In this document: positions 22,673 through 32,881 of the stretch, piece after piece | How the letters are laid out: every line of letters begins with the position of its first letter | How positions within the stretch are numbered: the stretch's first letter is position 1 | Assembly (NCBI GenBank): GCA_029239755.1 | Contig: JARBUI010000005.1 | Location: 1 to 64,000 of the forward strand | Direction of reading: 5' to 3' | Source of the DNA: Clostridia bacterium | GTDB taxonomy: Bacteria; Bacillota; Clostridia; Lachnospirales; Cellulosilyticaceae | Length of the DNA stretch: 64,000 nt | Made by a program: the position numbers and the translations under genes | The notes under the pieces: generated by a model | Seen by the model: only the letters and a program-made list of their open reading frames with translations | Databases searched by the model: none | What the model was told of the DNA's origin: nothing

Positions 22673-23344
22673 TTATTTCACGCAATACTCTTCAAGATAA
22701 GCTTCCATCCTAGCTCTCATAGCATCATCTATCACAACTTTGCCATCCACTGGTACATTATGCAAATTATCAATAATCTCACGTACAGTGACAATTGGAT
22801 AAGTCTTGATTCCAAATTCATCATATATCTCTTGAATAGCCGTTTTATTTTGCTGACCTCTTTCCATACGGTCCACAGAAATAATAAGTCCTGCTATTTC
22901 TACATTCGCAGCTTCTTTTAATATAGGAAAACACTCTCTAATCGCTGTCCCTGCTGTAATAACATCTTCAATAATAAGGACTTTGTCCCCATCCTTTAAT
23001 TTGTAGCCAACCATTGAACCGCCTTCACCGTGGTCTTTGGCTTCTTTTCTATTAAAGCAGTAGTTTAAATCCTTATCAAATTTATTAGATAGTGCAATAG
23101 CAGTAGCTACTGACAGCGGAATCCCCTTATAAGCTGGCCCAAATAACGCATTGATATCTTCTTTAATATTTTCTTCGATACAACTTGCATAAAACTCACC
23201 TAATTTCGCCGCTTGAAAACCTGTTTTATAATTGCCTGTATTAACAAAGTAAGGCGTCTTACGACCGCTTTTAGTTGTGAAATCTCCAAAAGTAAGAACC
23301 CCTGATCTAACCATAAATTCGATAAACTGTTTTTTATAACTCAT
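22673..23344 (-). CDS. pyrE: Orotate phosphoribosyltransferase
   Basis: 223 residues. It joins orotate and PRPP to form OMP. The PRPP-binding motif is VLIIEDVITAGTAIRE, and the flexible loop NRKEAKDHGEGG carries the Lys that contacts pyrophosphate. AGGAGG precedes the ATG. It is the last gene of the pyr operon, 58 bases after pyrD, and is followed by a terminator. Confidence 0.96.
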   Translation of the reverse strand: MSYKKQFIEFMVRSGVLTFGDFTTKSGRKTPYFVNTGNYKTGFQAAKLGEFYASCIEENIKEDINALFGPAYKGIPLSVATAIALSNKFDKDLNYCFNRKEAKDHGEGGSMVGYKLKDGDKVLIIEDVITAGTAIRECFPILKEAANVEIAGLIISVDRMERGQQNKTAIQEIYDEFGIKTYPIVTVREIIDNLHNVPVDGKVVIDDAMRARMEAYLEEYCVK

Positions 23345-23402: not shown

Positions 23403-24308
23403 TTAATCTATAAATGCTTCTCTGATTTCTTGAAGTGTTTTGAAGTTATATCTTTCCATGTAGGCTATAAGCTCATTTTTAATGTCTACTGGTGCTGTTG
23501 GATTTGCAAAAGCTGCTGTTCCTACAGAAACCGCATCTGCTCCTGCCATGATAAATTCAACAACGTCTTCCCCTGTCATAATGCCCCCAAGGCCTATTAT
23601 AGGTAAGTTAATGGCTCTTCTTACCTGATAAACCATCCTTACAGCCACTGGCTTAATCGCAGGGCCAGAAAATCCGCCCATCTTATTGGCGAGTACTGGT
23701 CTTCTTTTATGCACATCTATTTTCATCCCAAGCAGCGTATTTATAAGAGACACTGCATCTGCCCCTTCTGCTTCTACAGCTTTTGCAATCTCTGTGATAT
23801 CTGTAACGTTTGGTGTGAGTTTAATAATAATAGGTTTCTTTGATACCTTCCTTACTTCCTTCGTCACCTTAGCTGCCATCTCACTATGAGTTCCAAAACC
23901 TATGCCGCCTTTTTTCACATTAGGACACGAGATATTAATCTCCAGCATATCTACATCCGTCTCACTAAGCTTTTCAGCAACCTCGCAGTAATCTTCTATG
24001 CTGCGGCCTGCCACATTGACAATCACTTTGGTATCAAACGCTTTAAGGTAAGGCAGTTCATGCTTAATAAAATAATCTATTCCTGGATTTTGAAGGCCCA
24101 CTGAATTAAGCATGCCTCCATAGGTCTCTGCTATACGAGGGGTATTATTGCCTTCCCATGGGATATTGGCTACGCCTTTTGTAATCATAGCCCCTAGTTC
24201 GTTAAGGTTATAAAACTCACCGCTGTCATGACCTGAAAAAGTCCCTGAAGCTGTAGTGATTGGGTTACTGAGGATCACTCCTGCAAGGTTAACACTAAGA
24301 TCAATCAT
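23403..24308 (-). CDS. pyrD: Dihydroorotate dehydrogenase, class 1B catalytic subunit
   Basis: 301 residues. The FMN-binding TIM barrel contains NVAGRSIEDY, the catalytic Cys in NISCPNVKKGG and GLGGIMTGEDVVEFIMAGA. The Cys base and the partner PyrK immediately upstream (8-base overlap) mark it as the NAD-dependent class 1B heterotetramer. It oxidises dihydroorotate to orotate in the cytoplasm. Confidence 0.96.
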   Translation of the reverse strand: MIDLSVNLAGVILSNPITTASGTFSGHDSGEFYNLNELGAMITKGVANIPWEGNNTPRIAETYGGMLNSVGLQNPGIDYFIKHELPYLKAFDTKVIVNVAGRSIEDYCEVAEKLSETDVDMLEINISCPNVKKGGIGFGTHSEMAAKVTKEVRKVSKKPIIIKLTPNVTDITEIAKAVEAEGADAVSLINTLLGMKIDVHKRRPVLANKMGGFSGPAIKPVAVRMVYQVRRAINLPIIGLGGIMTGEDVVEFIMAGADAVSVGTAAFANPTAPVDIKNELIAYMERYNFKTLQEIREAFID

Positions 24309-25068
24309 TCCAAATCACCTCACTTCCAAGGAATACTGGTCCATCCTTACATACTTTTTTATGCTCATAGCCTGACTCAGTACTTTCTTTTACTTTACAT
24401 ACACAGCCTACGCATGCGCCATAACCGCATCCCATACGTTCTTCCAGTGAAACCTGCACCGGTACATTTTTTGCCATGCAATAATCAGCTAACGCCTTTA
24501 ACATCACTTTAGGCCCGCAGCTATAAAAGTAATCTCCTTCTATGCCTTCTTCTTTAATAAGCTCAATAACATTTCCCTTAAAGCCTGCCTTGCCGCTGTC
24601 TGTAGCGATGTAAACTTTAGCTCCAGCCTTTTCTAACTCTTCCTTTAAGAAAGGCTCGTCTCTAAATCCAATCACAGCGACTTTCTCACACGTTAACTGC
24701 TTCGCTAGTTCCACAAGGGGAGGAACACCTATTCCCCCGCCTACTAGAACAGCACATTTGGTATTTTGAGGCTTAAAGCCAGTTCCTACTGCTGTACTTA
24801 TTCTAATGGTTTCACCCACTTTATAACTTGCAAACTCCTTAGTCCCTTCACCTACTACACCGTATACAAGGGTAATGGTTTCTTCCCCTATTTCACAAAT
24901 ACTGATAGGTCTTGGTAGGAGTGTATGCTTTGCTCTTGGATAGAGGTTCACAAACTGTCCGCAACTTGCAGAGGCAGCAACTTCTTTATTTTCGATGACC
25001 ATACGGTAAACATCTGCTGCAATTTCTGTATGCTGTACTATTTTGCCCTCTGCAACTTTTTTACTCAT
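24301..25068 (-). CDS. pyrK: Dihydroorotate dehydrogenase electron transfer subunit
   Basis: About 255 residues from the ATG at 25068, which overlaps the carB stop by 8 bases and has GGGAG and AGGTG upstream; the longer frame to 25089 lies inside carB. It has an FAD-binding domain (RPISI), an NAD-binding domain with [14 protein letters not shown] and a C-terminal 2Fe-2S cluster in [13 protein letters not shown]. It passes electrons from PyrD to NAD+. Confidence 0.95.
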
Positions 25069-28000
25069 CTGCACCTGCTCCCATATCATAGATATTCGTT
25101 TCTTCTGTTCTAATTTGTTTCTCTACTATATCTGCCATTGCACGGAGTGTATCGAGTGAAGTAAGAATCTGCAGTGAAGCTTCAATCGCAGCTCTTCTTA
25201 TTTTGAAGCCGTCACGGTTGGAGTCATTACCTTTTGTAGGGGTGTTGACTACAATATTAACTTCTCCACTTCTTATCACATTAATGATTTCATCGCTGCC
25301 TTCTGATAACTTCTTCACTACTTTAGCATCGATGCCGCTGGCTTGTAATTTCTTAGCTGTCCCTTCTGTTGCAACAAAGTTATATCCAAGAGCCGCAAAA
25401 CGTTTAGCAAGCCCTGCAAACTCATCCTGGTCATACTTTTGTATCGTTGCGAAGATGGTTCCGCCTTGTCTTGGAAGGCTCTTACCTGCTGCTATAAAAC
25501 CTTTGTAAAGTGCTTCTTCCACTGTAACCCCTACCCCTAGAACTTCTCCTGTTGATTTCATCTCCGGTCCAAGGCTTACTTCTACTCTTGGAAGCTTTTC
25601 GGTTGAGAAGACTGGTACTTTAACCGCATAGAAATTTTGTGGTTCTGGATAAAGTCCTGTTCCATAGCCCATGTCACCTATCTTTTCGCCAAGCATTGCT
25701 CTCACGGCAAGGTCGATAATTGGTACGCGGGTTACCTTTGAAATGTACGGTACTGTTCGGCTCGAACGTGGGTTTACTTCTATAATATATAGGTCATTTT
25801 TGTATTCAATGTACTGGATGTTAATCATCCCTAATACCTTTAACTCTTTTGCAATCATTCTTGTACAGGTCACAATTTTTTCTTTGATATGCTCTGGTAT
25901 ATTAACACTTGGATAAATACTTGTACTGTCTCCTGAGTGAATCCCTGCTCTTTCTAAATGCTCCATAATACCTGGTATCAGGATTTCTTCACCGTCACAA
26001 AGGGCATCAACTTCTATTTCACGGCCCATTAGGTATCTGTCTATTAAGACTGGATTTTCCGGGTCTCTTTCAAAGGCATTCACAAGATATCTTCTAAGCT
26101 GTTCTTCTTCGTAAGTGATTTCCATCCCTTGGCCGCCAAGGACATAGGATGGTCTTACAAGCACTGGGTATCCAAGATCTTCAGCAACCTGCAAGCCTTC
26201 TTCCATAGACCAGATTGCCTTGCCTTTTGGCCTTTTGATTTGAAGCTTTTCGAGAACTTCATCAAATTTTTCTCTATCTTCTGCTGCGTCCACTTGTTTT
26301 GGATGTGTGCCAAGTACTGGGATATCCATTTTATCACAGAATTTAGCAAGCTTAATGGCTGTCTGCCCGCCAAACTGTAAGATAACACCCATTGGTTTTT
26401 CTTTAAGGTAGATATGGTAGAAATCTTCATCTGTTAATGGCTCAAAGTAAAGTTTATCTGAGATATTAAAGTCTGTACTTACAGTTTCTGGGTTATTATT
26501 AACAATGATTGTCTCGATGCCGCGTGCTCTAAGAGCCATGATCGCATGTACTGAGCAGTAGTCAAACTCAATTCCTTGACCAATTCGGATAGGCCCTGAG
26601 CCAATAACCATAATCTTTTGTTTGTCTGATACTTCAACTTCATCTGTCTTATCGTAGGTTGAGTAGTAGTATGGAGACTCAGCTTCGAACTCTCCTCCAC
26701 AGGTATCAACCATTTTGTAAACAGGCACAATGTCCCATTTAAAGCGGAGGTCTCTTATATCATCTTCTACTACGCCGATAAGTTCAGCAATAGCTTTATC
26801 TGAAAACCCACGTCTTTTAAGTTTGCGAAGGTAATGAGGGGTAAGCTCATCATAAGCCATTTCTGAAAGAAGCTCTTCCTGCTCTACGATCCATTTGAAT
26901 TTTTTAACAAAGAAGATATCCATGCCTGTTATTTTGCAAACTTGCTCTTCTCTATAGTGTCTGCGAAGCATTTCTGCTAAGGCAAAGATTCTTTCATCAT
27001 CTGCTATAACAACTTTCTCTTTTAGCTCATCCAGTGAACACTCCTGCAGCTTTTTGTGCTTAAAGCTAAACTGACCGATTTCAAGAGACCTGAGGCCTTT
27101 TAGAAATGCGCTTTCGAAGCTGTTGCCGATGGCCATAATTTCACCTGTTGCCATCATCTTTGTTCCTAGCGTACGTTTAGCGGTATAGAATTTGTCAAAT
27201 GGCCATTTTGGTATTTTACAAACGACATAATCAAGAGTTGGTTCAAAGCAGGCATAGGTCTTGCCTGTTACAGTATTAGGAATTTCATCAAGCCCATAAC
27301 CTAGTGCAATTTTTGCTGACACTCTGGCGATCGGATAACCCGTTGCTTTTGAAGCAAGAGCCGATGAGCGGCTTACACGAGGATTGATTTCAATAACTGC
27401 ATACTCAAAGCTGTCTGGATTGAGAGCTAGCTGAACATTACAGCCTCCTCTGATATCACAGGCTGAGATAATGTCTAAAGAAGCTCTTCTAAGCATTTGA
27501 TATTCTTTATCTGAAAGGGTTTGAGAAGGGGCTACGACAATACTGTCTCCTGTGTGAATTCCTACTGGATCAATGTTTTCCATATTACATACCGTAATAG
27601 CTGTGCCATAACTGTCTCGCATCACCTCGTATTCTACTTCTTTCCAGCCTTTAATACACTTCTCAATAAGGACTTGGTGTACACGGGATAGGTGAAGACC
27701 GCTTGCGGCAATTTCTCTAAGTTCTTCTTCTGTCTCAGTAATACCACCTCCTGTTCCTCCTAAGGTATAAGCTGGTCTTACAACAACTGGATAACCAATC
27801 TTTCTTGCAAACGCTACAGCATCTTCTACTGTCTCTACAGTCTTACTCTCAATAACAGGCTGATTAATTCTATCCATCAGAGCTCTGAAGTCTTCTCTGT
27901 CTTCGCCCTCTTTAATCGCTGATATTTGTGTTCCTATAACTCTTACATTATATTTTTCTAAAATACCTTTATCATGAAGCTCAACCGCAAGGTTCAGACC

Positions 28001-28282
28001 CGTTTGTCCGCCTACGCCGGCTAAGAGACTGTCTGGTTTTTCTTTTGCAATAACTTTCTCGATGAAGTCTATTGTAAGGGGTTCAATATATATTTTATCC
28101 GCTACTTCTTTGTCTGTCATGATTGTAGCGGGGTTGCTGTTTACTAAAACAACTTCTATGCCTTCCTCTTTAATGGCTTGACAAGCCTGAGTTCCAGAAT
28201 AGTCAAACTCTGCTGCCTGCCCAATAACAATGGGGCCTGATCCTATTACCAGTACTTTTTTTATGCTCATGTCTCTTGGCAT
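25061..28282 (-). CDS. carB: Carbamoyl phosphate synthase large subunit
   Basis: 1073 residues, full family length. Two homologous ATP-grasp halves are visible: [20 protein letters not shown] at the start and [20 protein letters not shown] in the second half, each followed by ATP-binding loops such as [12 protein letters not shown] and [11 protein letters not shown], and a C-terminal MGS-type allosteric domain. It makes carbamoyl phosphate from bicarbonate, two ATP and the ammonia delivered by CarA. It starts one base inside the carA stop (TAATG) and is part of the pyr operon, with no arginine genes in view. Confidence 0.97.
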
Positions 28283-29343
28283 TATAATTTACCTCCCTGC
28301 ATTACTTTAATGAACTCGTCAAAAATGTGCGCTGTGTCTGTTGGTCCTGGAGCTGCTTCCGGATGGAATTGTACGCTGTAGATGTTAAGGTCTTCAAAGT
28401 ACATTCCCTCTACTGTTTGGTCATTAAGGTTCGTGTGTGTAATCCTTGCTCCGGCTGGAATGGTTTCAACCACATAGTTATGATTTTGTGAAGTAATATA
28501 AACACGGTTTGTGATGAAGTCTTTAACCGGGTGATTACAGCCATGATGGCCAAACTTGAGTTTCATTGTGTCTCCGCCTAGCGCAAGAGATAAGAGCTGA
28601 TGCCCTAAACATATTGCTGTAATTGGCTTTTTACCTACGATTTGCTTAACCGCTTCTACCACCTCTGGAACGTCCTTAGGGTCTGCAGGTCCATTGGATA
28701 GGAATACGCCGTCTGGATTTACGCTAAGGATTTCTTCGGCTGTAGCCGATGCCGGAAATACTGTCAGCTTACAACCTCTTGCTTCAAGGGAGCGCAGAAT
28801 GTTTTGTTTAATCCCGCAGTCAATAACTGCTACGTGAATTTTCTTGCCCTTAATTTCATACTTTTCTTTAGTCGTTACTTCTGATACAGCCATTTGATTG
28901 TTAAAAGCATCTATTTTAAGTTTAATTTGACTTGGTGTAAGCTCTCTTACGGCTATAATCGCTCTCATCGTACCATGTTCTCTAATGACTTTTGTAAGTG
29001 CTCTTGTATCAATCCCTTCAAGACCGATGATCTTCTGAGACTTAAGGTACCCGTCTAAAGTAAGCTCACATCTGAAGTTATTTGGGTAATCACTTCTCTC
29101 TCTTACAATAAAAGCTCTTACGTGTGCTTTATAACTTTCCATATCTTCAAGGTTAATCCCATAGTTACCAACAAGCGGATAAGTCATAACAACCATTTGA
29201 CCGTAGTAAGACGGGTCAGTCAGTATTTCCTGATAGCCTGTCATCCCTGTATTAAAGACAACCTCTCCTATTGTTTCTTTTAAATACCCAAAAGCCTTGC
29301 CCTCAAAAACCATGCCATTTTCTAATATAAGTTGTGCTTTCAT
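28282..29343 (-). CDS. carA: Carbamoyl phosphate synthase small (glutaminase) subunit
   Basis: 353 residues. An N-terminal CPSase domain ([19 protein letters not shown]) is followed by a class I glutamine amidotransferase with nucleophile Cys in AICLGHQLL and the His/Glu pair in [12 protein letters not shown]. It releases ammonia from glutamine for CarB. It overlaps pyrF by one base upstream and carB by one base downstream, so the genes are translationally coupled. Confidence 0.97.
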
Positions 29344-30257
29344 CAGCTCATCACTCCTTGTAAATCATCTCTCATAGCTAGTACTGCTTCTCTAGAAGCT
29401 TGTGCAAATTCTTTTTCTGATATTTCTTTATTACTCTGGTAAGCTGCGATAATACCTCTTGAAGAGTTAACAATAATGCCTGTTCCATCTTTATCAAAGT
29501 ATTCTTTAAGATCCTCGGCTTTGCCGCCTTGAGCGCCGTATCCAGGTACTAAGAAGAACGTATGTGGCATTCTCTTTCTGAGTTCTATGCCCTGTTCTTT
29601 GTATGTAGCCCCTACTACGGCTCCTATTTTGCTATAACCGAGTTCTCCCATGGCGAGTTCTCCCCACTTACTTACCAAATCTGCTGCTTTATCATAAACC
29701 GGCATTCCGTCAGTTAATAGATCCTGAAGCTCGGTGCCGCTTGGATTACTTGTCTTTACTAGGATAAAAAGTCCTCTATCATACTTGTTGCATGCTTCAA
29801 TGAAAGGGGATATCCCGTCAAACCCCATATAAGGATTGAGGGTCACTGCATCTTCCTGCCAAAGATCTATATGAACATCTTCTATATCAACTCCTGCAAT
29901 ATGCCCTGCATAAGCTGCTGCTGTTGAAGCAATATCACCTCTTTTAACATCTCCTATGACAACAAGTCCTTTTGCTCTTGCATAAGCAATGGTTTCTATA
30001 TACGCTCTAAGGCCCTCTAATCCATATTGTTCATACATGGCTACTTGCGGCTTCACAGCAGGTATAAGTCCACTTACTTCATCTAAGATGGCTTTATTAA
30101 ACTTTAAGAACATTTCAGCTACTGCTTTAGGTGACTTACCATATGCCTCAAGCATCTCTTCTTTAATAAAAGAAGGAATCATAGCATAGGTTGGGTCAAG
30201 CCCTACAACTGTTGGATTTTGTGTCTGCTTAATTTTAGTTATTAATCTATCTATCAT
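29343..30257 (-). CDS. pyrF: Orotidine 5'-phosphate decarboxylase (long type)
   Basis: 304 residues, the longer class of OMP decarboxylase. The catalytic motif is VVIGDVKRGDIASTA with the Lys/Asp charge network, and VGATYKEQ and FLVPGYGAQGG form the phosphate site. The ATG at 30257 has AGGAG seven bases upstream; a GTG three bases earlier is the alternative. It makes UMP, the last step of the pathway encoded here. Confidence 0.95.
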   Translation of the reverse strand: MIDRLITKIKQTQNPTVVGLDPTYAMIPSFIKEEMLEAYGKSPKAVAEMFLKFNKAILDEVSGLIPAVKPQVAMYEQYGLEGLRAYIETIAYARAKGLVVIGDVKRGDIASTAAAYAGHIAGVDIEDVHIDLWQEDAVTLNPYMGFDGISPFIEACNKYDRGLFILVKTSNPSGTELQDLLTDGMPVYDKAADLVSKWGELAMGELGYSKIGAVVGATYKEQGIELRKRMPHTFFLVPGYGAQGGKAEDLKEYFDKDGTGIIVNSSRGIIAAYQSNKEISEKEFAQASREAVLAMRDDLQGVMS

Positions 30258-30348
30258 CACTTTTCTCCTTTATTCTGCTTACTCTACTCTTATTGTATCT
30301 ACTTTTGAATTTTTATGCAATATATTTAATAATTATTCTATGCATATT

Positions 30349-31623
30349 CTACTGTTTTTGATAAACAATTTTTCCCTTTACGATGGTATAGCTCACTTCA
30401 CCTGACACAGCCATTCCAGTAAAAGGTGTATTTTTACCTTTACTTACAAATTTTGCAGGATCAATGTTATAAGCTGCCTCGGTATCTATGATGGTAATAT
30501 CTGCTGTTTTGCCGACCTCAATACTCCCTTTGTCAATCCCGAGTATTTTAGCAGGCTTAGTACTCATTTTGTCTATAAGCTCCATGGGTGATAAAATACC
30601 TGTTTTAACAAGGTGCGTATAACTAAGTGCAAAACTCGTCTCAAGTCCTACAATGCCAAAAGGAGCTTTATCAAACTCTACATTTTTTTCATCATAGTGA
30701 TGGGGCGCATGATCGGTTGCAATTACATCTATAACCCCTTCTTTAAGTGCTTCCTTCATGGCTTCTACATCTTCTTTTGTTCTAAGCGGAGGATTCATCT
30801 TTTTGTTAGTATCGTAATCTCCGAGTATACTGTCATCCAGTGTAAAGTAATGAGGTGCAGTTTCAGCGGTTATATTTACTCCCTGAAGTTTTGCCATGCG
30901 GATAAGATCTATACTGCCTTTAGTACTCATATGTGAAAGATGAAGTTTTGCTCCTGTATATTTTGCTAAGATAATATCTCTTGCAACAATCACTTCTTCT
31001 GCTTCTCTTCCTATTCCTTTGATGCCAAAAAGCTGTGCATTTTCTCCTGCATTCATGGAACCCCCTGCAAGGGTATGGTCTTCAGTATGGGAGAAGATGG
31101 GGATATCAAACGGTTTAACATATTGCATAGCCTTTTTCATAAGACCTGCGTCCATAACAGTCTTGCCGTCTTCACTAACTGCGCAGATGCCGTGTTCTCT
31201 CATCTTACCAATGTTAGCAAGGCTCTCTCCTTCCTGCCCTTTAGTAATGGCTCCTACAGGAAGAACATTAACACCATTTGCCTTTGCTGCCATCGCATGT
31301 ATATATTCTACTACACATTCATTGTCTATAACAGGATTTGTATTGGGCATGCAGCATACGGTCGTAAAACCACCCCTTGCAGCTGCCTCACATCCACTTT
31401 TAATATCCTCTTTATGTTCAAAGCCTGGTTCTCTAAAATGAACATGGAGATCAATGAGGCCGGGAACAACCCACTTGCCGCTGGCATCAATTGTCTGATC
31501 TGCTGTTTGATTGTTATCTTCACCTATCTCTATAATTTTACCATCTTCAATCCAAATATCAGTAACCTCTTCTGTTTGTGTTTTAGGATTAATCAGTAAC
31601 CCATCTTTAATACACATTTTCAT
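30349..31623 (-). CDS. pyrC: Dihydroorotase
   Basis: 424 residues, class I dihydroorotase of the amidohydrolase family. The metal motif DLHVHFREPGFEHKED is near residue 55, followed by PNTNPV, SHMSTKGSIDL and the final metal Asp in ATDHAPHHYDEK. It cyclises carbamoyl aspartate to dihydroorotate. Its start overlaps the pyrB stop by four bases (ATGA). The 88-base gap before pyrF is the widest inside the operon. Confidence 0.96.
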   Translation of the reverse strand: MKMCIKDGLLINPKTQTEEVTDIWIEDGKIIEIGEDNNQTADQTIDASGKWVVPGLIDLHVHFREPGFEHKEDIKSGCEAAARGGFTTVCCMPNTNPVIDNECVVEYIHAMAAKANGVNVLPVGAITKGQEGESLANIGKMREHGICAVSEDGKTVMDAGLMKKAMQYVKPFDIPIFSHTEDHTLAGGSMNAGENAQLFGIKGIGREAEEVIVARDIILAKYTGAKLHLSHMSTKGSIDLIRMAKLQGVNITAETAPHYFTLDDSILGDYDTNKKMNPPLRTKEDVEAMKEALKEGVIDVIATDHAPHHYDEKNVEFDKAPFGIVGLETSFALSYTHLVKTGILSPMELIDKMSTKPAKILGIDKGSIEVGKTADITIIDTEAAYNIDPAKFVSKGKNTPFTGMAVSGEVSYTIVKGKIVYQKQ

Positions 31624-32549
31624 GATTTTGCTCTCCCTTCACTTAGCAGTGTTAAAATAGCCATTCTTACTGCTACACCATTTGTGACTTGTTCGTCTAT
31701 CACCGAAACGCCGCTGTCAATGAGCTCCGGCATTAGTTCTACCCCTCTGTTAACAGGGGCTGGATGCATCAAGATGGCATCCTCTTTTGCATAAGAAAAC
31801 GTTTCTTCATCCAGGCCATAAAGCTGACTATATTCTCTAAGGTTCGGAAAAAGTCCGCCTTTTTGCCTCTCCAGCTGAATACGAAGCGCCATCACAACAT
31901 CAGCATTTCTAACAGCAGATTTTATATCCGTTGTTACCTCACATCCAAGAGCCTCCATACTTTTTGCAGTTAGGGTACCTGGACCTGCCAGCGTGACATG
32001 TGCCCCTAGCTTGACAAGACCAAAAATATCAGATCTTGCAACCCTGCTGTGAGCTATATCTCCTACGATTGTTACATTAAGTCCTTTGAAGCTGCCTTTC
32101 TTTTCGTAGATCGTATAAAGATCTAAAAGTGCCTGTGTTGGATGTTCGTTAGCTCCATCCCCTGCATTCATAACGGATGCTTTTACATTTTTAGCTAAGA
32201 GGTGTGCTGCCCCGCTCATACTATGCCTTATAATCATATACTCTATACCCATTTTATCAAGTGTAATACCTGTATCTGCGAGTGTTTCACCTTTTTGTAC
32301 ACTGCTTGAAGCAATGCCAAGGTCCACCACGTTCGCTCCAAGATACATCCCAGCCATAGTAAAGGCTACTCTTGTTCTTGTACTATTCTCATAAAATAGG
32401 GTAACAATGCTTTTATCTTTTAATACATCTAATTTACTCCTAGACCCTAAAACGATTGGTTTCATGTCCTTTGCGAGTTCTATTATCGACATGATTTCTG
32501 AAACTCCTAAATCTCTTATACCTAGTAAGTCTTTTTTATGAAGCATCAT
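31620..32549 (-). CDS. pyrB: Aspartate carbamoyltransferase catalytic subunit
   Basis: About 309 residues. It has the carbamoyl-phosphate loop YENSTRTRVAF, HPTQALLD and HPAPVNRGVE. The ATG at 32549 (or the next ATG at 32546) is preceded by AGGATGG and fits the family N-terminus LLGIRDL; the longer frame begins only with TTG inside the attenuator. No pyrI regulatory subunit is present. First gene of the operon, controlled by the leader described at 32588-32881. Confidence 0.96.
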   Translation of the reverse strand: MMLHKKDLLGIRDLGVSEIMSIIELAKDMKPIVLGSRSKLDVLKDKSIVTLFYENSTRTRVAFTMAGMYLGANVVDLGIASSSVQKGETLADTGITLDKMGIEYMIIRHSMSGAAHLLAKNVKASVMNAGDGANEHPTQALLDLYTIYEKKGSFKGLNVTIVGDIAHSRVARSDIFGLVKLGAHVTLAGPGTLTAKSMEALGCEVTTDIKSAVRNADVVMALRIQLERQKGGLFPNLREYSQLYGLDEETFSYAKEDAILMHPAPVNRGVELMPELIDSGVSVIDEQVTNGVAVRMAILTLLSEGRAKS

Positions 32550-32587: not shown

Positions 32588-32624
32588 AAGGTAATAAAAA
32601 GATTTATCATCTTTTTATTACCTT
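32588..32624 (-). terminator. Attenuator terminator in the pyr leader
   Basis: A perfect 16-bp stem (32588-32603 with 32609-32624) and a 5-base loop, followed on the minus strand by TTTTATTTT. It lies 39 bases before the pyrB start. Its 5' strand can instead pair with the upstream antiterminator segment at 32820-32828. Confidence 0.88.
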
Positions 32625-32783
32625 ATAACTTGCGAGAGATACTAATTTTTGGAAAACATAAGCTAAGACACCTATGCCATTAGAAACAAAGCATGTATCC
32701 GCTGTTTTTATATTTAATTTTACGTGTTTATTATATCTTACCAAATCCATTATACTGGTTGTTTGAGTGTTTATTTGTCTCAT
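32607..32783 (-). CDS. Pyr leader ORF (58 codons) ending in the attenuator loop
   Basis: The minus strand has ATG at 32783 with AAAGGAG six bases upstream and stays open for 58 codons (MRQINTQTTSIMDLVRYNKH at the start, SLASYKVIKR at the end), stopping in the loop of the terminator. The protein resembles nothing I know. The ribosome binding site adjoins the 3' arm of the PyrR-binding hairpin, so translation may be affected by PyrR, and ribosomes finishing the ORF would cover the terminator stem. It may also be a fortuitous frame. Confidence 0.5.
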   Translation of the reverse strand: MRQINTQTTSIMDLVRYNKHVKLNIKTADTCFVSNGIGVLAYVFQKLVSLASYKVIKR

Positions 32784-32791
32784 GATAATCT

Positions 32792-32828
32792 CCTTTTTGG
32801 CCTCTCTGGACCAAGCTTAAAGGTAATA
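32792..32828 (-). promoter_or_regulatory. PyrR-binding anti-antiterminator and antiterminator segment
   Basis: On the minus strand CCTTT and TTGG pair with CCAA and AAAGG around the loop TCCAGAGAGG, which fits the conserved PyrR-binding loop of Bacillus pyr attenuators. The segment TATTACCTT (32820-32828), partly locked in this hairpin, is perfectly complementary to the 5' part of the terminator stem (32616-32624). With UMP-bound PyrR the terminator forms; without it the long-range antiterminator can form. No pyrR gene is in the window. Confidence 0.85.
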
Positions 32829-32852
32829 TTTATATTCAATTTTCTGTGTTAT

Positions 32853-32881
32853 ATCATATCACAGCTGACTGGCAGTGTCAA
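32853..32881 (-). promoter_or_regulatory. Sigma-A-type promoter of the pyr operon
   Basis: On the minus strand TTGACA (32876-32881), a 17-base spacer and TATGAT (32853-32858). It lies just upstream of the PyrR element, so the leader would begin at about 32846. Confidence 0.85.

Follow-up and report, generated by a model that had tools for sequence, protein, structure and literature searches.

The leader of the pyr operon in the window (the whole 64,000-nucleotide stretch of DNA analysed here) is, in our judgement, quite likely an attenuator of transcription that is controlled by PyrR and uses a ribosome, at least in part, as its antiterminator. Its layout points to a mini-gene that would be hidden by PyrR and whose ribosome would block the terminator, a mode of gene control that is probably genuine and has received little notice. 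All elements of the switch lie on the minus strand, in the leader ahead of an operon with the order pyrB-pyrC-pyrF-carAB-pyrK-pyrD-pyrE. The first gene controlled is pyrB (aspartate carbamoyltransferase, 31620..32549; NF002032, E 1.3e-110). Protein-family matches likewise identify pyrC (dihydroorotase, 30349..31623), pyrF (orotidine-5'-phosphate decarboxylase, 29343..30260), carA (carbamoyl phosphate synthase small subunit, 28282..29343), pyrD (dihydroorotate dehydrogenase, 23403..24308) and pyrE (orotate phosphoribosyltransferase, 22673..23344). The carB open reading frame (carbamoyl phosphate synthase large subunit, 25061..28282) is named from its sequence and place, and the best model for pyrK (dihydroorotate dehydrogenase electron-transfer subunit, 24301..25089) scored below its cut-off. 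The genome belongs to a family shared with Cellulosilyticum, Sporanaerobium and Epulopiscium (relatives G001-G023). A pyrR gene is present in three of five congeners and in 15 of 24 genomes of the family. The window's own assembly (G000, 73% complete) carries two PyrR sites, yet a search for pyrR gave no match there, nor in the assembly of one congener (G019, 92% complete).

The promoter (32853..32881) consists of TTGACA (32881-32876) and TATGAT (32858-32853) separated by a 17 nt spacer, with 11 of 12 consensus matches. A PyrR-binding hairpin is predicted at 32792..32823, with the loop TCCAGAGAGG at 32810-32801 and a stem formed by CCUUU (32823-32819) and AAAGG (32796-32792) plus a UUGG/CCAA pairing. 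This corresponds to the definition of the PyrR-hairpin element as a two-part, internally bulged stem topped by a UCCAGAGAGG-type loop. The Rfam RF00515 covariance model gave 35.2 bits (E 0.004), aligning the hairpin core and not the rest of the model; as the score lies below the gathering score of 54, curated annotation would miss the site. The hairpin core is nevertheless invariant across 13 relatives. On the evidence of sequence and fold, four bases of the putative Shine-Dalgarno (SD) sequence AAGGAG (32790..32795) lie inside the 3' arm of the hairpin.

This SD sequence precedes a leader ORF of 58 codons (32607..32783, ATG at 32783), which ends at an intrinsic terminator of 16 bp (32588..32624). 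The terminator comprises a 5' arm (C, 32624-32609), a loop (32608-32604) and a 3' arm (D, 32603-32588) followed by UUAUUUUG, and the TGA of the leader ORF (32609-32607) covers the last stem base and the first bases of the loop. It is the sole terminator-like site in the region, where shuffled sequences give a mean of 0.0, and its covariation in 13 leaders exceeds that of all 500 shuffles. It follows the PyrR site and precedes the first gene, as a Bacillus-type attenuator requires. The consensus promoter, the PyrR loop, the SD-led ORF ending in the terminator loop and a complementarity between the hairpin region and the terminator had all been proposed in the original prediction, and all are present. 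Dinucleotide shuffles of the window's leader leave such an ORF open to the terminator with a probability of 0.009. The leader and its ORF were found in four of the four other congeners examined, with an amino-acid identity of 41-55%. The frame conservation on which the original prediction depended thus holds in every congener examined, and five further families of Clostridia share the layout.

This recurrence was established by gathering PyrR sites by loop pattern from two samples of approximately 390 genomes each, one from the order and one from the class. Sites were classed by how far off the first terminator lies and by the presence of an SD-linked start after the hairpin, with long leaders defined by a terminator at least 85 nt away; terminators were picked as single hairpins, apart from that of L164, which was set by hand. 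Three architectures were found: a compact attenuator, a hairpin placed on the SD sequence of a gene, and an SD-sequestering hairpin followed by a leader ORF that reads into the terminator. Compact leaders (terminator <85 nt away) precede pyrR, uraA or pyrB and mostly have no SD-linked start (23 of 33), while at the 12 sites without a terminator the hairpin covers the gene's own SD sequence (pyrB, uraA or pyrC). Long leaders all precede pyrB, pyrC or carA, and an ORF runs into or past the terminator in 26 of 35. In a hand-listed set of leaders with both an SD-linked start and a terminator, the window's included, 30 of 32 ORFs stay open as far as the terminator or beyond it, compared with 1.5 expected from dinucleotide shuffles. 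Three short leaders in this set (L262, L267 and L283) were added with their ORF already known; the tables of the rule-based classification are independent of them. Leaders within a genus are related, so that counts of leaders overstate independence, and the safer figure is that at the level of genus, at which 12.6 of 13 groups are open in the hand-listed set (1.0 expected). A second batch of two further families, analysed with rules fixed beforehand, yielded an ORF in 10 of 11 leaders with a terminator at 85 nt or more and, overall, 23 of 25 open ORFs against 3.7 expected. The remaining two frames are open in none of 45 leaders. Sequence comparison therefore demonstrates the layout, its conservation and selection for a frame that is open into or through the terminator.

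The ORF class spans approximately 20 genera in six families (f1, f7, f14, f22, f64 and f92, assigned by genus labels). Its ORFs begin 9-20 nt past the hairpin, matching the structural genes that lie under SD-overlapping hairpins, including the uracil permease gene of the window's own genome. The stop codons fall in the terminator 5' arm, the loop, the 3' arm or shortly beyond, and AT-rich loops are inherently rich in stops. No clear case of the class was seen in a wider-phylum sample from outside the Clostridia (25 loci with a gene).

In the window's family, a second candidate for the antiterminator role is provided by the RNA itself. Segment A (UAUUACCUU, 32820..32828), which comprises the 5' flank and the 5' arm of the hairpin, is a candidate for distant pairing with the terminator 5' arm: TATTACCTT at 32828-32820 is perfectly complementary to 32624-32616, the part of C that would form the antiterminator contact (32616..32624). 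An inverted-repeat search extends the pairing to 17 nt at 82% (32812-32828 with 32616-32632). By chance, a run of 9 nt is expected with P = 0.03 and the duplex energy with P = 0.005. This raises the alternative of an attenuator operating through RNA only, in which the A:C pairing would antiterminate, PyrR would stabilise A:B (A paired with the hairpin 3' arm), and the ORF would be accidental or a relic. The A:C pairing spans 8-13 nt in 12 of 13 leaders of the family, and 94% of its cells are paired in the family alignment, compared with 29-56% when the segments are slid against each other. In an energy model of the window, A:C outcompetes A:B by 7.7 kcal/mol until D is transcribed, and the terminator is favoured once D is made with A:B in place. 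Furthermore, four of seven Cellulosilyticum leaders (L150, L151, L154 and L155) have lost the ORF through differing start-codon lesions or early stops while retaining the hairpin, the terminator and 10-13 nt of A:C. The ORF is thus dispensable in the window's family where A:C is long. However, an RNA-only attenuator leaves unexplained both the ORF that is open in nine of 13 family leaders and the five families of the ORF class from which A:C pairing is entirely absent; one congener (G018) retains the ORF with A:C reduced to 5 bp. The covariation expected between 32616-32624 and 32820-32828 in the original prediction did not materialise at a significant level: it amounts to one base pair, doubly changed in two sequences, a score that is reached by 55 of 500 shuffles. 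The long-range antiterminator proposed there is therefore upheld as a complementarity conserved within the family, and not by covariation, in G018 or in the other families. We regard the RNA-only attenuator as unlikely. The ORF and A:C as two partly redundant routes in the window's family fit the data as a lead, with all losses lying within one genus. An inverse trade-off between the presence of the ORF and the length of A:C is suggestive; with four losses in a single genus, no significance is claimed for it. These four leaders constitute a natural deletion experiment on the leader ORF.

Alternatively, the ORF could be the gene of a functional small protein, such as a regulator connected with pyrimidines, that happens to lie in the leader. 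The conserved open frame agrees with this, as does a Phe/Tyr-Cys motif near the N-terminus that recurs in other families. However, a search of Pfam and NCBIfam with the leader ORF found no family above cut-off, and pN/pS is approximately 0.85 in the window's genus (0.6-0.8 in other genera), with peptides that are dissimilar between genera. The length of the ORF is set by the distance to the terminator, the C-terminus is encoded by the terminator arm, and four species have lost the ORF altogether. A small protein is consequently a very improbable explanation. The near-neutral divergence of the peptide indicates that selection, as read from these sequences, acts on the frame reading into the terminator more than on the peptide, which is probably disposable. 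Weak matches of the ORF by tblastn to frames of 177-182 aa in Cellulosilyticum (E 0.03-0.09) lie on contigs other than that of pyrB and were rejected as homologues.

In the Bacillus subtilis-type leader, the PyrR hairpin acts as an anti-antiterminator ahead of an intrinsic terminator (PMC4347634). The leaders described by RF00515 and the window have the PyrR hairpin and the intrinsic terminator in common. They differ in that the 3' half of the Bacillus subtilis-type hairpin pairs with the terminator arm, while here that half is the SD sequence, the arm of the terminator is rich in purines, and the 5' half would be the alternative partner. The survey extends this difference to the class as a whole. 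The terminator 5' arm has a pyrimidine fraction of 0.28 in the ORF class and of 0.70 in compact leaders (p = 4e-18); only in compact leaders does the hairpin 3' arm (B) pair with the terminator arm (p = 4e-9). The latter agrees with the contiguous antiterminator that the original prediction had ascribed to known leaders. In the window, B and C are both purine-rich and do not form the Bacillus-type antiterminator; with B serving as the SD sequence, A takes its place as the putative partner of the terminator arm. A purine-rich terminator 5' arm without 3'-half pairing is expected if the hairpin 3' half must serve as an SD sequence. It is scarcely credible that the leader is an ordinary compact Bacillus-like attenuator with an ORF open by chance in AT-rich sequence: the loop, the operon and the partial RF00515 match are alike, but the hairpin 3' arm, being an SD sequence, is unable to pair with a terminator arm rich in purines, compact leaders have another polarity and spacing, and chance-open frames are expected at only the 1.5 of 32 and 3.7 of 25 given above. 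The canonical antiterminator is absent from the class, and none is visible outside the window's family; the role therefore likely falls to a translating ribosome. Where pairing between A and the terminator is also missing, in five of the six families, the ribosome is likely the one antiterminator that can be discerned.

We infer PyrR binding, its effect on translation and the blocking of the terminator by a ribosome in vivo, in the following scheme. With UMP plentiful, UMP-PyrR would clamp the hairpin, hiding the leader SD sequence and tying up A. Neither a ribosome nor A would then occupy the terminator 5' arm, the terminator would fold and transcription would end before pyrB. With UMP low, the hairpin would open, and A could bind C upon its synthesis, ahead of the ribosome. 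A ribosome would load on the freed SD sequence and translate the 58 codons; with the stop codon in the terminator loop, the terminating ribosome would cover C, and RNA polymerase would proceed into pyrB. The suggestion in the original prediction that PyrR blocks translation of the ORF and that its translation in turn antiterminates gains strength from the conservation of the ORF. A caveat for a ribosome in this role in Clostridia is that ribosomes reportedly fall behind RNA polymerase in Bacillus subtilis. In E. coli, a terminator located a few bases past a stop codon is suppressed almost fully (PMC4824070).

A broader reading is that the Clostridia contain an undescribed, widespread class of attenuator in which PyrR acts only via translation of a leader ORF and the ribosome is the antiterminator. 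The window's family would have added A:C, and some Cellulosilyticum would since have dropped the ORF, amounting to a hand-over from ribosome to RNA antitermination. We put the chances of this reading a little short of even. A literature search of partial coverage found no account of the class in Clostridia. In Thermus strain ZO5, a PyrR attenuation in which a ribosome replaces the antiterminator was reportedly proposed by Van de Casteele et al. in 1997 (J Bacteriol 179:3470). That system shares with the present one the control of a pyr operon by PyrR and a translating ribosome that prevents the terminator; it comes from another phylum and was a proposal from one sequence, whereas the present class covers six families of Clostridia with statistics. 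The Thermus-type proposal further involves an SD-overlapping hairpin and a leader ORF into the terminator, which are found here with translation being putative, and reportedly no RNA antiterminator, which does not apply to the window's family with its A:C pairing and does apply to the other families of the class. If the Thermus proposal took this form, the idea itself has a precedent, and what is new is the recurrence in six families with statistics, the inverted terminator polarity and the added A:C.

In Mycobacterium smegmatis, a PyrR hairpin is said to cover the ribosome-binding site and to repress the first structural gene directly (Fields and Switzer, 2007, cited in PMC10672894). A hairpin covering the ribosome-binding site is common to both systems; here repression would act on a leader ORF and, through it, on a terminator. 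The window's genome has the direct form as well, in that a second PyrR hairpin lies directly on the SD sequence of the uracil permease gene without a terminator (L156, G000:C20:186606-186626). By its sequence, this site is one of direct translational control in the same genome as the leader-ORF switch, and one hairpin module would serve both structural genes directly and leader ORFs. Ribosome-mediated attenuation usually senses charged tRNA, an antibiotic or polymerase speed, while here access of the ribosome itself would be controlled by a protein that responds to a metabolite. In E. coli pyrBI, the terminator is kept from forming by a ribosome that spans the pyrL leader (PMC5021804). Leader translation into the terminator permits pyr transcription in both cases; the E. 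coli system has no PyrR hairpin and depends on the spacing between RNA polymerase and ribosome (PMC5021804), whereas here it would depend on the access of PyrR to the leader SD sequence.

A number of further features were observed among the leaders. In four of them (L161 from Sporanaerobium, L284, L318 and L320) the ORF crosses the entire terminator and stops 24-76 nt past it; that of L161 ends approximately 15 nt ahead of pyrB and could couple translation of the leader and the gene. The Phe/Tyr-Cys motif recurs at about codons 6-11 of ORFs outside the window's family, as AFFYC, SFCC, ACFCY, FFCC, CFYC or AFCY (examples are L163, L176, L182, L284, L318, L343 and L407), and is absent from the leader ORFs of the window's family. 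It corresponds to a U-rich tract approximately 39-51 nt past the hairpin, which may act as a polymerase pause sensitive to UTP or as a signal in the nascent peptide. In f7, f14 and f22 (L163, L164, L169, L171, L173, L174, L176, L178 and L181-L187), a segment 5' of the hairpin (e.g. ACGCA) pairs with codons 5-8 of the ORF. The same leaders place the start codon in a short hairpin of the form (G/C)AUG...CAU(C/G), in which one double change is seen. The ribosome-binding site would lie inside a larger fold, of which 93% of cells are paired and the covariation is weak. In f64, tandem PyrR hairpins occur approximately 105-250 nt apart (G844, G872, G859, G822, G788, G904, G873, G824, G806 and G841), and those that were fetched lie ahead of uraA.
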